From contig NZ_JACCBN010000001.1 in NCBI RefSeq assembly GCF_013409505.1, positions 1,488,001-1,552,000 of the forward strand: DNA of 64,000 bases. The letters are read 5' to 3'. Positions 23,896 to 28,249 of this stretch are shown in pieces (the first letter of the stretch is position 1; each line of letters starts with the position of its first letter). The DNA comes from Actinomycetospora corticicola (GTDB lineage Bacteria > Actinomycetota > Actinomycetes > Mycobacteriales > Pseudonocardiaceae). Below the pieces are notes generated by a model, which had not been told where the DNA came from, made no database searches, and worked only from the letters and a program-made list of their open reading frames with translations. The translations under genes and the position numbers were made by a program.

Positions 23896-25260
23896 TCAGC
23901 GCCCGGGGGAGGCGAGTCGCCCGCCCAGCTCCAGGAGCCGGTCGGGCGCCTTCTGGGCGAGCTTCATGAACACCTCGCCGGCGCGGGCCCGCGCGAGCGA
24001 CCCGTGCCCGAACTTGCGGGACAGCCCCCCGTGGTCGCCGGGCAGCTGGTGGTGCTGGGGGGTCTGCGAGGCCTCGGTGGCCAGGGTGCGCCCGATGACC
24101 ATCCGCTGGATCTCGCTCGTCCCCTCGAAGATCGTGTAGAGCTTCGCGTCCCGGTACCACTTCTCCACGGGCAGGTCGGAGACGTAGCCCCAACCCCCGC
24201 ACACCTGGACGGCCTGTTCCGCCGCGCGCACGGCGACCTCCGAGGCCTTCAGCTTCGACATCGAGCCCTCGCCGAGGTGGAACGGCACGCCGTTCGCGGC
24301 CATCCAGGAGGCCCGCCAGCACAGGAGCCGGGCGGCGTCGATCTCGGCAGCGATGTCGACGAGCGGGAAGGCGACGCCCTGGTTCTCGATGACCGGGCCA
24401 CCGAAGGCCTCCCGGCGCGACGCGTAGTCGCACGCGTACTCGAAGGCCGCCCGGGCGACGCCGAGGGCCATCGCCGCCACCATGGGCCGGGTCTGCTCGA
24501 AGGTGCCGAGCGCCGCGGAGCGCCCCTCGCCGCGCCGCGCCTTCTCCAGCTTGTGCTCGAGCTTGTCGGCGCCGCCGAGCAGCTGGTCGCCGGGGATCCG
24601 GCAGTCGACGAAGGACAGCTCGGCGGTGTGCGAGGCCCGGTGGCCGAGCTTGTCGAGCCGCCGTACCTGGTCCATGCCGGGCGTGCCCTTGGGCACCAGG
24701 AACATCGCCTGGCCCTTGGTGCCGAGCTCCGGGTCGACCACGGCGTTGACGATCGTCACGTCGGCGATGCCGCCGTTGCCGATCCAGATCTTGGTGCCGT
24801 TCAGCACCCAGTCGTCGCCGTCGCGGACCGCGCGGGTCTGCAGGTTCGCGACGTCGCTGCCGCCCTGCGGCTCGCTGACGGCCAGGGCCGCGAGCTTGAT
24901 GTCGCCCGGTTCACCGAACATCTCCGGCGCCCACTTGGCGAGCTGCTCCGGGGTCCCGGCCTGGTTGAGGGCCGAGAGCGCGAGGGCGGGGAGCACGAGG
25001 GTCAGTCCGATGCCGGCACAGCCCCAGAAGATCTCCTCGAGGTACAGCGGCAGCGAGAGGCCCGAGGGGTCGGCGATCATGTCGGCGTAGAACAGCGGGC
25101 TGTAGAAGCCCTCGCGGGCGGCCGCGTCGACGATGTCCCAGGGGCACTCCTGGAGCTGGTCGTACTTCGCGGCCGCCGGCCGGATCACCTCCTCCGCGAA
25201 CGTGTGGGCGCGGCGCACCAGCTCGTGATGCGCCGGGGTGAGCTCGAGCGTGAACGCCAT
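23896..25260 (-). CDS. Acyl-CoA dehydrogenase
   Basis: FAD enzyme making a trans-2,3 double bond in an acyl-CoA. 454 residues, longer than the ~380 of short-chain family members owing to a C-terminal extension after residue ~400 (GGLSRKFGHGSLARARAG and on). LAVSEPQGGSDVANL is the FAD/substrate loop, GTKIWIGNGG and DKLGHRAS follow, and the catalytic Glu is in LYTIFEGTSEIQRM. ATG start at 25260; the longer open frame upstream crosses the SOS boxes and is not used. Acyl chain length cannot be told. Confidence 0.92.
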   Translation of the reverse strand: MAFTLELTPAHHELVRRAHTFAEEVIRPAAAKYDQLQECPWDIVDAAAREGFYSPLFYADMIADPSGLSLPLYLEEIFWGCAGIGLTLVLPALALSALNQAGTPEQLAKWAPEMFGEPGDIKLAALAVSEPQGGSDVANLQTRAVRDGDDWVLNGTKIWIGNGGIADVTIVNAVVDPELGTKGQAMFLVPKGTPGMDQVRRLDKLGHRASHTAELSFVDCRIPGDQLLGGADKLEHKLEKARRGEGRSAALGTFEQTRPMVAAMALGVARAAFEYACDYASRREAFGGPVIENQGVAFPLVDIAAEIDAARLLCWRASWMAANGVPFHLGEGSMSKLKASEVAVRAAEQAVQVCGGWGYVSDLPVEKWYRDAKLYTIFEGTSEIQRMVIGRTLATEASQTPQHHQLPGDHGGLSRKFGHGSLARARAGEVFMKLAQKAPDRLLELGGRLASPGR

Positions 25261-25329
25261 GGCACGTCCTCCCGGTCCGGTGTGATCTGCAGTACCGCGT
25301 ACCGGGGGTACCGAAACCAACCCGGCATG

Positions 25330-25362
25330 ATCGAACTTGCGTTCGATCCGAACACGTGTTCG
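25330..25362. promoter_or_regulatory. Two tandem LexA (SOS) boxes
   Basis: ATCGAACTTGCGTTCGAT (25330-25347) and CGAACACGTGTTCG (25349-25362) each match the Gram-positive/actinobacterial SOS box CGAAC-N4-GTTCG with no mismatch. The second ends 10 bp before the radical SAM start codon and would cover its likely -10 region, so LexA binding should repress it. The divergent acyl-CoA dehydrogenase starts 70 bp on the other side and could also be affected. From memory, the mycobacterial ortholog Rv2578c is listed among SOS-box genes. Confidence 0.9.
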
Positions 25363-25372
25363 ACTGCTGGTC

Positions 25373-26971
25373 ATGCGGTGGGCGGGTCAGCAGCTGGACG
25401 ACGACGGGACGTTGCCGGGGATGCCGGCCCTGAAGGGCCTCGTGCGCAGCGTGCAGACCCCCGAGTTCGCCGGCATCACCTTCCACGAGGTGCGGGCCCG
25501 CTCGGTGCTCAACCGGGTGCCGGGCGGCTCGCCGATGCCGTTCGCGTGGACGGTCAACCCGTACCGCGGCTGTTCCCACGCGTGCACCTACTGCACGGTC
25601 GGCTCGACACCGGTCCTGCGGGCCGACGGCGGCACCGTCGCGATGGCCGATCTGGCCGTGGGCGACGCGATCGTCGGCACCGTCACCGAGGGCGGCGTCC
25701 GGCGGCTCGTGCGGACCCACGTGCTCGCGCACTGGTCGAGCCGACGCCGGGTGGTGCGGGTCCGCCTGGCCGACGGCACGGAGGTCGTGGTCGGCGCCGA
25801 CCACCGGCTGCTGGCCCGCACCGGGTGGCGGCACGTCTCCCGGGCCGGCGCCGACGGGCACGGCGGCACGTGGCTGGTACCGGGGGACGCCCTGGTCGGC
25901 GCCGAGACCCTGCCCGCACCGGGCCTCGCCGGGGTCCGCGACGTCCTGGACGAGTCCCGGGGCGCCGACCGGACCCTCGTCGCCGTGGAGCCCGCGGGCG
26001 AGGAGACGGTCTACGACGTCACCACGACGACGGGCGACTACGTGGCCGTCGGCCTGGTCCACCACAACTGCTTCGCCCGGAACACCCACACCTACCTCGA
26101 CCTCGACGCCGGGGCGGACTTCGACCGGCAGGTCGTGGTCAAGCTGAACGCGCCCGAGGTGCTCGCCCGGGAGGTGCGCTCGCCGCGCTGGAACCGCGAG
26201 CACGTGGCGATGGGCACCAACACCGATCCCTACCAGCGGGCGGAGGGCCGGTACCGGCTCATGCCCGGCATCATCCGGGCGCTCGGCACGTCCGGGACGC
26301 CGTTGTCGATCCTGACGAAGGGCACGCTGCTCGCCCGCGACCTCCCGGAGATCGTCGCCGCGGGGCGAGACGTCCCGGTGGGTGTCGGGGTGTCCCTGGC
26401 GCTGCTCGACGCCGACCTGCACCGCTCCGTCGAACCCGGCACCCCCACCCCGCGGGCCCGGCTCGACCTCGTCCGTCGCATCGCCGGCGCCGGGCTGCCC
26501 GTGGGGGTGTTCGTGGCGCCGGTGCTGCCGGGGCTCACCGACTCCGACGAGGCACTGGACGCGCTGCTCGGGGAGATCGCCGCCGCGGGGGCGAGCGGGG
26601 CGTCGGTGCTCGCCCTGCACCTGCGGCCGGGCACGCGCGAGTGGTTCCACGGCTGGCTCGCGCGGGAACAGCCGCACCTGCTGGAGCGGTACGCGCAGCT
26701 CTACCGGCGGGGCGCGTACGTGCAGCAGGCCTACCGGGACGACCTCGCCCGGCGGGTGGCCGTGCTGCTCCGCCGGCACGGTCTCGATGGCGGGGGGCAC
26801 CACATGGGTGGGCGCCTCGACGGAGACGCAGCGAAGCGGAACTCGACCCGGGTGGACGGCGGGAAGGGCGTGGCGCCCGACAACCCCGAGCCGTGGCCCG
26901 ACGGCGCGCTGCCCCGGGTGCCGGCGGCCGTCGTCGAGCAGACCCCGCCGGAGCAGCTCTCCCTGCTCTGA
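25373..26971 (+). CDS. Rv2578c-family radical SAM protein (COG1533, SplB-like) with in-frame mini-intein
   Basis: 532 residues before splicing, 373 after. The mature protein would read GCSHACTY-CFARNTH, restoring the CxxxCxxC 4Fe-4S motif near residue 70, followed by the family's GTNTDPYQRAEGRYRLMP, SILTKGTLLARD and HLRPGTREWF. COG1533 proteins are annotated as DNA repair photolyase-like; activity is unproven. ATG 25373 is chosen since the protein then begins MRWAGQQL like mycobacterial relatives. No ribosome binding site is seen, so translation may be leaderless. The stop is followed by a 16-bp sequence repeated at 33301. Confidence 0.95.
   Translation: MRWAGQQLDDDGTLPGMPALKGLVRSVQTPEFAGITFHEVRARSVLNRVPGGSPMPFAWTVNPYRGCSHACTYCTVGSTPVLRADGGTVAMADLAVGDAIVGTVTEGGVRRLVRTHVLAHWSSRRRVVRVRLADGTEVVVGADHRLLARTGWRHVSRAGADGHGGTWLVPGDALVGAETLPAPGLAGVRDVLDESRGADRTLVAVEPAGEETVYDVTTTTGDYVAVGLVHHNCFARNTHTYLDLDAGADFDRQVVVKLNAPEVLAREVRSPRWNREHVAMGTNTDPYQRAEGRYRLMPGIIRALGTSGTPLSILTKGTLLARDLPEIVAAGRDVPVGVGVSLALLDADLHRSVEPGTPTPRARLDLVRRIAGAGLPVGVFVAPVLPGLTDSDEALDALLGEIAAAGASGASVLALHLRPGTREWFHGWLAREQPHLLERYAQLYRRGAYVQQAYRDDLARRVAVLLRRHGLDGGGHHMGGRLDGDAAKRNSTRVDGGKGVAPDNPEPWPDGALPRVPAAVVEQTPPEQLSLL
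25592..26068 (+). other. 159-residue mini-intein inside the radical SAM gene
   Basis: Begins at Cys1 (CTVGSTPVLRADGG, block A), has block B around VVVGADHRLLARTGW with the expected His, block F VYDVTTTTGDYVAVG and block G GLVHHN with penultimate His and terminal Asn, followed by Cys+1 of the extein. All splicing residues are therefore present. At 159 residues there is no room for a homing endonuclease. The insertion point is the third cysteine of the radical SAM CxxxCxxC motif: the unspliced protein cannot present a normal cluster loop. Confidence 0.93.
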
Positions 26972-27193: not shown

Positions 27194-28249
27194 ATGTCGT
27201 CTGCTGTTGTCCCACCCGTCCCCGCCCCGAGCGGTGAGCCGTTCTGGGTCTGGGCCCTGACCATCGCCGGACTCGCGGCGATCTTCGCGGTCGATCTGTG
27301 GGCCGGTCGTCGGGCCCGCGAGGTGACGATGCGCGACGCGGCCCGCGGGGTGGCGATCTACGTCGGGCTGGCCGTCGTGTTCGCGGCGGGGATCTTCTGG
27401 TTCGGGGGCCGCGAGCAGGGCACCGCGTTCGTCGCCGGGTACGTCACGGAGTACTCGCTGTCGGTGGACAACCTGTTCGTGTTCCTGCTGATCATGACCG
27501 CGTTCCAGGTCCCGAAAGCGTTCCAGCACCGGGTGCTGCTGGTCGGGATCCTCATCGCCCTGGTGATGCGCGGCGGGTTCATCCTCGCCGGCGCCGCGGT
27601 GATCGAACGGTTCTCCTGGGTGTTCTACCTCTTCGGCGCCTTCCTGGTGATCACCGCGGTGAAGGTCTGCCTCGAGAAGAGCGACGACTCGCACGAGTTC
27701 AGCGAGAACGCCCTGCTGCGTCTCGTGCGGCGCGCCGTCCCGGTGACCGACACCTACCGCGGGACTGCCCTCTGCGTGTGGGAGGCGGGGCGGTGGATGA
27801 TCACCCCGATGCTGATGGTGATGATCGCCATCGGGCTGACCGACCTGCTGTTCGCCCTGGACTCCATCCCGGCGATCTTCGGGCTCACCAAGGACCCCTA
27901 CATCGTCTTCACCGCCAACGCCTTCGCCCTGCTCGGGCTGCGCCAGCTCTACTTCCTGCTCGGCGGGCTGCTCTCCCGGCTGGTGTACCTGCAGTACGGG
28001 CTCGGGGTGATCCTGGCGTTCATCGGGGTCAAACTGGTCCTCGAAGCCCTGCACACCAACACCGTGCCGTTCATCCACGCCGGCCGGCCGGTCGAGGTGC
28101 CGCTGATCGGGATCGAGCTCTCCCTCGCCGTGATCATCGGCGTCCTCGCCGTCACCACCGTCGCCAGCCTCATCCGCACCCGCGGGCAGGGGCAGCCGGA
28201 CGGCGGGGACCCCGAGCAGTCCGAGCGAACGGCACTCTCGCGCACGTAG
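27194..28249 (+). CDS. terC: TerC-family integral membrane protein, probable Mn2+ exporter
   Basis: 351 residues with about nine membrane segments. The two TerC metal-site motifs are EYSLSVDNLFVF (about residue 87) and DLLFALDSIPA (about residue 220), each with a membrane-embedded acidic pair. TerC proteins downstream of Mn2+ riboswitches export manganese or metallate secreted enzymes; tellurite resistance in the name is historic. ATG start with GGAGGA 5 nt upstream, buried in the riboswitch expression stem. Confidence 0.93.
   Translation: MSSAVVPPVPAPSGEPFWVWALTIAGLAAIFAVDLWAGRRAREVTMRDAARGVAIYVGLAVVFAAGIFWFGGREQGTAFVAGYVTEYSLSVDNLFVFLLIMTAFQVPKAFQHRVLLVGILIALVMRGGFILAGAAVIERFSWVFYLFGAFLVITAVKVCLEKSDDSHEFSENALLRLVRRAVPVTDTYRGTALCVWEAGRWMITPMLMVMIAIGLTDLLFALDSIPAIFGLTKDPYIVFTANAFALLGLRQLYFLLGGLLSRLVYLQYGLGVILAFIGVKLVLEALHTNTVPFIHAGRPVEVPLIGIELSLAVIIGVLAVTTVASLIRTRGQGQPDGGDPEQSERTALSRT

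Follow-up and report, generated by a model that had tools for sequence, protein, structure and literature searches.

The combination of a radical SAM protein of the Rv2578c type with an intein is already recognized as a protein family, as NCBIfam model NF038136 describes exactly this host together with its intein. MoaA, which is the host of another intein, is a radical SAM enzyme too. In Pyrococcus abyssi MoaA, a native disulfide between Cys-3 and Cys1 stops splicing by blocking the first step until it is reduced (PMC10663303, PMC3922620), and redox traps have been made in the Ssp DnaE intein by introducing a cysteine at -3 (PMC3922620). The mycobacterial SufB intein also has an iron-sulfur host and is preceded by a conserved N-extein His-5 (PMC8891592). 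Mycobacterial DnaB inteins are influenced by zinc, reactive chlorine and oxidative stress; a review of 2014 stated that conditional splicing of physiological relevance had yet to be found (PMC4031507). Judging by titles and the opening lines of abstracts, none of the papers found on Rv2578c or on inteins in radical SAM enzymes studies the Rv2578c-site intein.

Here, we examined a window (that is, the whole stretch of DNA that was analyzed, 64,000 nucleotides) from Actinomycetospora corticicola, in which one gene combines such a host with an intein. Its features are as follows, with positions numbered from the first letter of the window.

25373-26971, + strand: precursor coding sequence, intein-containing Rv2578c-family radical SAM protein, 532 aa (NCBIfam match)
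25373-25591, + strand: N-extein, 73 aa, ending G-C(-7)-S-H(-5)-A-C(-3)-T-Y(-1) (sequence)
25571-25573, + strand: Cys67 (C-7), first cluster ligand (sequence, alignment)
25583-25585, + strand: Cys71 (C-3), second cluster ligand, spaced from Cys1 as is the N-extein cysteine of the redox trap PDB 3nzm
25592-26068, + strand: mini-intein, 159 aa, with Cys1 (25592-25594) as its only cysteine
25793-25804, + strand: block B, G-A-D-H, with conserved His71 of the intein and Gly at the Thr/Ser position
26015-26017, + strand: block F Asp, intein residue 142
26063-26068, + strand: block G penultimate His and terminal Asn
26069-26071, + strand: Cys+1 (Cys233), predicted step 2 nucleophile that would serve as third cluster ligand after splicing
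26069-26968, + strand: C-extein of 300 aa with the radical SAM barrel (PF04055 at 59.5 bits; best stretch 260-394)

The precursor scored 773.7 bits against NF038136 (cut-off 700) and 517.8 bits against NF038135 (cut-off 430), and no other gene of this genome matched NF038135 at E<=0.001. The first-pass annotation, which was made from the letters alone, had placed a mini-intein of 159 residues at 25592-26068. Both the coordinates and the length proved exact: the insert starts with Cys, ends with His-His-Asn and is followed by a Cys codon, so that the precursor reads CSHACTY, the 159-aa insert (Cys ... HHN) and CFARN. The annotation was also right that NCBI family names cover intein-containing Rv2578c proteins, NF038136 being matched above its cut-off. 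Sequence, family models and fold all agree with its proposal that the intein interrupts CxxxCxxC, with Cys1 mimicking the third ligand and Cys+1 restoring it, and in intein-free homologs, whose comparison with intein-bearing ones it had suggested, CFAR or a similar motif directly follows CxY. The gene lies between a divergent acyl-CoA dehydrogenase gene (23896-25374, - strand) and a gene for a TerC-family membrane protein (27194-28249, + strand), and these two neighbors give no clue to the substrate of the enzyme.

The motif of the spliced protein, C67-x3-C71-x2-C233, was invariant in an alignment of 31 rows. The CX3CX2C expected after splicing and the partial barrel matched by PF04055 are both features of radical SAM enzymes, and the model of an intein-free homolog had spore photoproduct lyase 4fhg as its nearest structural match (8.8e-7; TM-scores below 0.5). 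As a radical SAM enzyme, the precursor is very probably inactive, because its first two ligands lie 159 residues away from the third ligand and the barrel. In the AlphaFold2 model of the precursor, pLDDT fell below 50 at residues 61-72 and 234-247. The low pLDDT of the cluster loop was considered, and rejected, as a sign that the loop cannot form before splicing, since the intein-free homolog was equally uncertain there (49-86).

In the same model, the insert had 10-residue pLDDT means of 70-96 (whole-protein mean 73.6). Foldseek placed solved inteins and an intein-like domain at the top ranks for it (6frg at 1.3e-9, 1mi8, 6y75 and 4o1r), and the leading matches included Ssp DnaB, BIL2 and Npu DnaB; the predicted structure has the Hint fold of a class 1 intein. 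A profile built from 30 inteins of the Rv2578c site also recovered, by sequence, PDB entries of DnaB, DnaE and RecA inteins. The intein is a divergent one, as the generic intein models matched only below their cut-offs (PF14890, 22.3 against 35.8; TIGR01445, 18.4 against 24.5). The class 1 residues found in the window are Cys1, the block B His, the block F Asp, the penultimate His, the terminal Asn and Cys+1. The first five occurred in each of the 88 distinct inteins at this site, a set that includes the window's own intein and for which Cys1 and Cys+1 belonged to the pattern used to parse the loci. No endonuclease domain was found in the 159 residues at E<=1, save a weak match to the Hint part of Hom_end_hint. 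Thus, the earlier remark that the insert has no room for an endonuclease agrees with its length and with the lack of a LAGLIDADG or other endonuclease match at that threshold.

The claim that all splicing blocks are present stood for the five conserved residues named above, but not for the Thr/Ser position of TxxH in block B, where the window reads G-A-D-H. Ser occupied this position in 76 of the 88 distinct inteins and Gly in the other 12, which comprise all seven distinct inteins of the window's 159-aa sub-clade and five more outside it. The Thr/Ser of block B is not taken here as strictly defining class 1, the His being retained. In other inteins, the block B Thr helps to strain the first scissile bond and thereby aids step 1, according to a review (PMC10663303). 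By analogy, the missing hydroxyl may make step 1, and with it splicing, slower in the window's intein. Compared with the NF038136 family, which has the same host protein and intein, the 159-aa sub-clade is essentially no different, except for the Gly in block B and for the lack of an inner cysteine in its nearest members.

With regard to distribution, all 18 Actinomycetospora genomes searched had a match to the family and 17 of them carried the intein: 16 scored above the cut-off, all with a mini-intein, and one more had intein pieces on two contigs. In the remaining genome the gene was cut by a contig end. Among 150 genomes of the taxonomic family, 123 contributed 126 gene rows and 27 had no match at E<=1e-60. 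Judged by match span, 60 rows had no insert, 15 a mini-intein, 41 a large intein and 10 were partial; on reading, five of the partial rows had inteins, two of these with a frameshift and three with a split behind the intein, whereas four were intein-free and one was unassignable. Accordingly, 64 of the 126 rows were intein-free, 61 intein-bearing and one unassignable, 116 being typed by match span alone and 10 by reading. Of 202 loci collected, 175 could be parsed by a script that covered this one insertion site (17 of the 27 unparsed loci were read): 106 had an insert of 138-519 aa at the site and 69 were intein-free. Five further loci (L020, L176, L179, L197 and L202) have an intein at the site and stand outside the counts of 106 and 88. 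In L176 and L179, which come from two species of one genus, the reading frame of the intein is disrupted, at a different point in each, which reflects either decay or sequencing error.

Inteins at this site differ in content as well as in length. One relative of 340 aa passed Pfam LAGLIDADG_3 (27.5 against 22.5), and LAGLIDADG was sought with no match in relatives of 190, 252, 292 and 519 aa. The last of these, in Pseudonocardia dioxanivorans (L013, 1540-3096), occupies the same site and has a weak collagen-repeat match, which hints at low-complexity extra sequence. An extein tree was obtained by a quick search from 151 distinct rows (88 intein-bearing and 63 intein-free) and left many forks open. 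On this tree, at least 17 changes between an occupied and an empty site and at least eight changes between mini (<=200 aa) and large inteins were counted. L066 and L050 stand side by side on it with near-identical exteins, one with and one without a large intein, as would be expected of a mobile element. The two Actinomycetospora intein types (159 aa and 165-166 aa) each formed one clade in an intein tree of 136 columns, and the two clades joined with a support of 91 (not starred). This pattern fits an old, vertical carriage of an intein that lacks an endonuclease.

Selection on the gene was measured as dN/dS by the Nei-Gojobori method. Among the five nearest species (L001-L005, 10 pairs), intein values were 0.108-0.210 and C-extein values 0.056-0.127; the pair L006/L007 gave 0.177 for the intein, and the C-extein range across 21 pairs was 0.056-0.135. 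The intein thus changes more quickly than the exteins do, but its low values argue for purifying selection and hence for a function being kept. The 10 pairs between L001-L005 and L006/L007 gave 0.317-0.516 for the intein, where dS is probably compressed by high G+C. The frame was open in all 13 loci of the sub-clade.

On the basis of these results, the window's intein is most likely what remains of a mobile element after the loss of its endonuclease, and one that must splice, since its relatives at the site range from intein-free alleles to larger inteins, one of them with a LAGLIDADG match. We put the probability at roughly 0.7 that it is a class 1 mini-intein relic without a homing endonuclease, whose splicing would be obligatory for the enzyme and most likely constitutive. 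Cys1 would attack the Tyr-1/Cys1 bond in an N-S shift, the N-extein would be transferred to Cys+1, and Asn159 would cyclize, so that the exteins would join as ...CSHACTYCFAR... and complete the CX3CX2C loop. The intein would then persist because its loss needs a precise event while splicing is under selection. We infer splicing itself, as well as its non-conditional nature, from what was observed: where the insert lies, its residues, its family and predicted fold, and how it is conserved and distributed over the phylogeny. A relic of a mobile element with constitutive splicing would explain the sequence with no need for a switch, because about half of the family rows are intein-free and because the gene is the usual, highly conserved kind of target of a homing endonuclease. 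Three observations speak against this explanation: block B lacks the hydroxyl in all seven distinct inteins of the sub-clade, the intein outpaces the exteins in evolution and its dN/dS between the two groups reaches 0.317-0.516, and the extein cysteines beyond the splice site are gone in the sub-clade, which a switch would also predict.

The best of the other explanations, although a good deal less probable, is the redox or metal gate that the first-pass annotation had proposed. A disulfide (C-3/C1 or C1/C+1), Zn(II) or a premature cluster would block step 1, so that an oxygen-sensitive enzyme would be freed in reducing conditions only; before splicing, C-7, C-3 and C1 already form a CX3CX2C pattern, and C+1 follows behind them. 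Several known systems bear comparison. The precursor has a cysteine at -3 next to Cys1, as does the P. abyssi MoaA intein, which sits in a different protein and was presumably inserted independently, and whose disulfide is reported, whereas here such a disulfide is hypothetical. In the Ssp DnaE redox traps 3nzm and 4gig, C-x-x-C1 (CPGC1 in 3nzm) aligns in register with C-T-Y-C1 of the window, at E values of 1.8 and 0.95, the former being weak; 3nzm and other DnaE intein structures are also among the Foldseek matches to the fold. The -3 cysteine was introduced in these traps, whereas it is native here. By its structure title, 4gig is a T69A mutant, and we take T69 to be the block B Thr, the residue whose missing hydroxyl could slow step 1 in the window and so assist a gate. 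The window shares His-5 with the mycobacterial SufB intein, although SufB is a cluster scaffold and the host here is a radical SAM enzyme. The retention of the intein in 17 of 18 Actinomycetospora genomes is a further point in favor. The idea of thiol-gated splicing is reasonable, chemically sound and has a precedent, but regulation of this intein stands as a proposal.

The cysteines of the precursor offer additional support for such a gate. In its 532 residues they number only four, C67, C71, C74 and C233 (C-7, C-3, C1 and C+1), all of them cluster or splicing thiols, and the predicted spliced enzyme would keep three, all cluster ligands. In a census counted from an MRW-like start (L010, with no recognisable start, was left out, and the loci include same-species repeats), just these four cysteines were present in nine of the 13 sub-clade loci (five of seven distinct) and in none of 92 other intein-bearing loci. 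No sub-clade locus of the 13 had an extra extein cysteine. However, the insertion site itself dictates how the cysteines are arranged, and the arrangement recurs in every parsed intein there: any Cys1 intein placed before a conserved Cys creates it, so the four-thiol arrangement is no evidence of a selected switch. The absence of extra extein cysteines is also not linked to the intein, as seven of 69 intein-free loci likewise have only the three ligand cysteines. Moreover, intein-free alleles are common (64 of 126 rows), one of them (L071) lying among 143-aa mini-intein alleles, and block B Gly occurs in five inteins outside the sub-clade. The four-cysteine state, being limited to one sub-clade, may be drift and is not read as selected. 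Cysteine avoidance inside the intein was separately considered as a trait of the family and rejected, since larger inteins hold up to seven inner cysteines.

A stronger version of the gate is more doubtful still. In it, the precursor would be a dedicated four-thiol sensor that captures an oxidant, Zn(II) or a premature cluster on a seemingly complete CX3CX2C belonging partly to the intein; the loss of the block B hydroxyl would make step 1 so slow that capture decides the outcome, and the intein would be kept throughout the genus to release the oxygen-sensitive enzyme only when the cell is reducing and replete in iron-sulfur clusters.

It is quite improbable that the intein is degenerate, splicing poorly or never, in a gene heading towards a pseudogene. 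The missing block B hydroxyl and the 27 of 150 family genomes with no match at E<=1e-60 would suit such a fate. So would the apparent dispensability of the gene in Streptomyces, where its ortholog is the integration target of the integrase of phage Samy and where the authors suggest that its loss has little fitness effect (PMC12924846). However, purifying selection acts on the intein as well as on the exteins, and none of the 13 sub-clade loci has an interrupted frame. That the insert belongs to the enzyme as an ordinary loop or domain, and is no intein at all, deserves next to no weight in spite of the low-scoring generic profiles, as it is already contradicted by the Hint fold, by the NF038136 score above cut-off and by insert-free relatives that show CFAR or similar directly after CxY (69 of 175 parsed loci).

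Rv2578c genes also harbor other insertions. In two genomes of one genus (G480 and G472), the gene consists of the N-extein, a full-length intein ending SHN, a Cys, other DNA of 13,848 bp (G480; loci L218-L219) or 22,220 bp (G472; L220-L221), the sequence ...CCACAAC and the C-extein. The first gene inside the G480 element encodes a large serine recombinase (Pfam Resolvase, Recombinase and Zn_ribbon_recom), to which the G472 copy is 80% identical. A third genome, G491, has the same two ends on two contigs (L224 and L225) and a recombinase gene in three fragments. The ends of the elements share CCACAAYTGY (G480, G472) or ACAACTGT (G491), that is, the codons of the last intein residues and Cys+1, so the attachment site coincides with the intein/extein junction in all three genomes. 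This attachment site appears to have been created by the intein, as a sequence existing only where an intein has inserted; integration itself, at the HN/C junction of Rv2578c, would follow from these junctions, which are small in number.

Close recombinases were found in these three genomes only among the 150 family genomes; two distant ones (40% and 38%) lay on contigs other than that of the Rv2578c gene. Near matches were likewise confined to the same three in searches of 397 genomes of the order, drawn without those three, and of 7 + 6 genomes by genus, although the 6-genome search (E<=1e-90) missed the fragmented G491 recombinase and broken copies could escape both. In the genus of G472, the element was present in two of four intein-bearing and in neither of two intein-free genomes, the seventh genome lying outside the typing. 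The element cannot be called a phage, because all 162 matches of its recombinase in phage records were below 60% identity (best 26%). The best 15 of 18 papers on inteins, attB and serine integrases dealt, by their titles and abstract openings, with tools or unrelated subjects, and we found among them no report of attachment sites at an intein junction.

A different insertion of ∼15 kb interrupts an intein-free Rv2578c gene in G421 (L222-L223). The shared end of this insertion is CACGCGTG, 7-15 nt upstream of the intein site, and one gene inside it begins, by eye, like a tyrosine integrase. The annotated 12-bp att repeat of phage Samy (L233, 572-583) matches ∼139 nt upstream of the intein site with one mismatch; this match was present in the three Streptomyces genes examined and absent from the Streptacidiphilus gene. 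Use of the intein site by Samy was rejected, as the att match lies in the same gene at another place.

In the relatives, one codon of this gene has been struck by two kinds of mobile DNA, namely inteins and the junction breaks seen in three genomes, with a recombinase-bearing element in two of them. The locus is also a natural test case of unusual clarity for whether inteins of iron-sulfur proteins act as sensors or are mere leftovers, because the precursor contains only the four relevant cysteines and the excised intein would contain only Cys1, and because the gene occurs in related species with a larger intein, with a mini-intein or without one.
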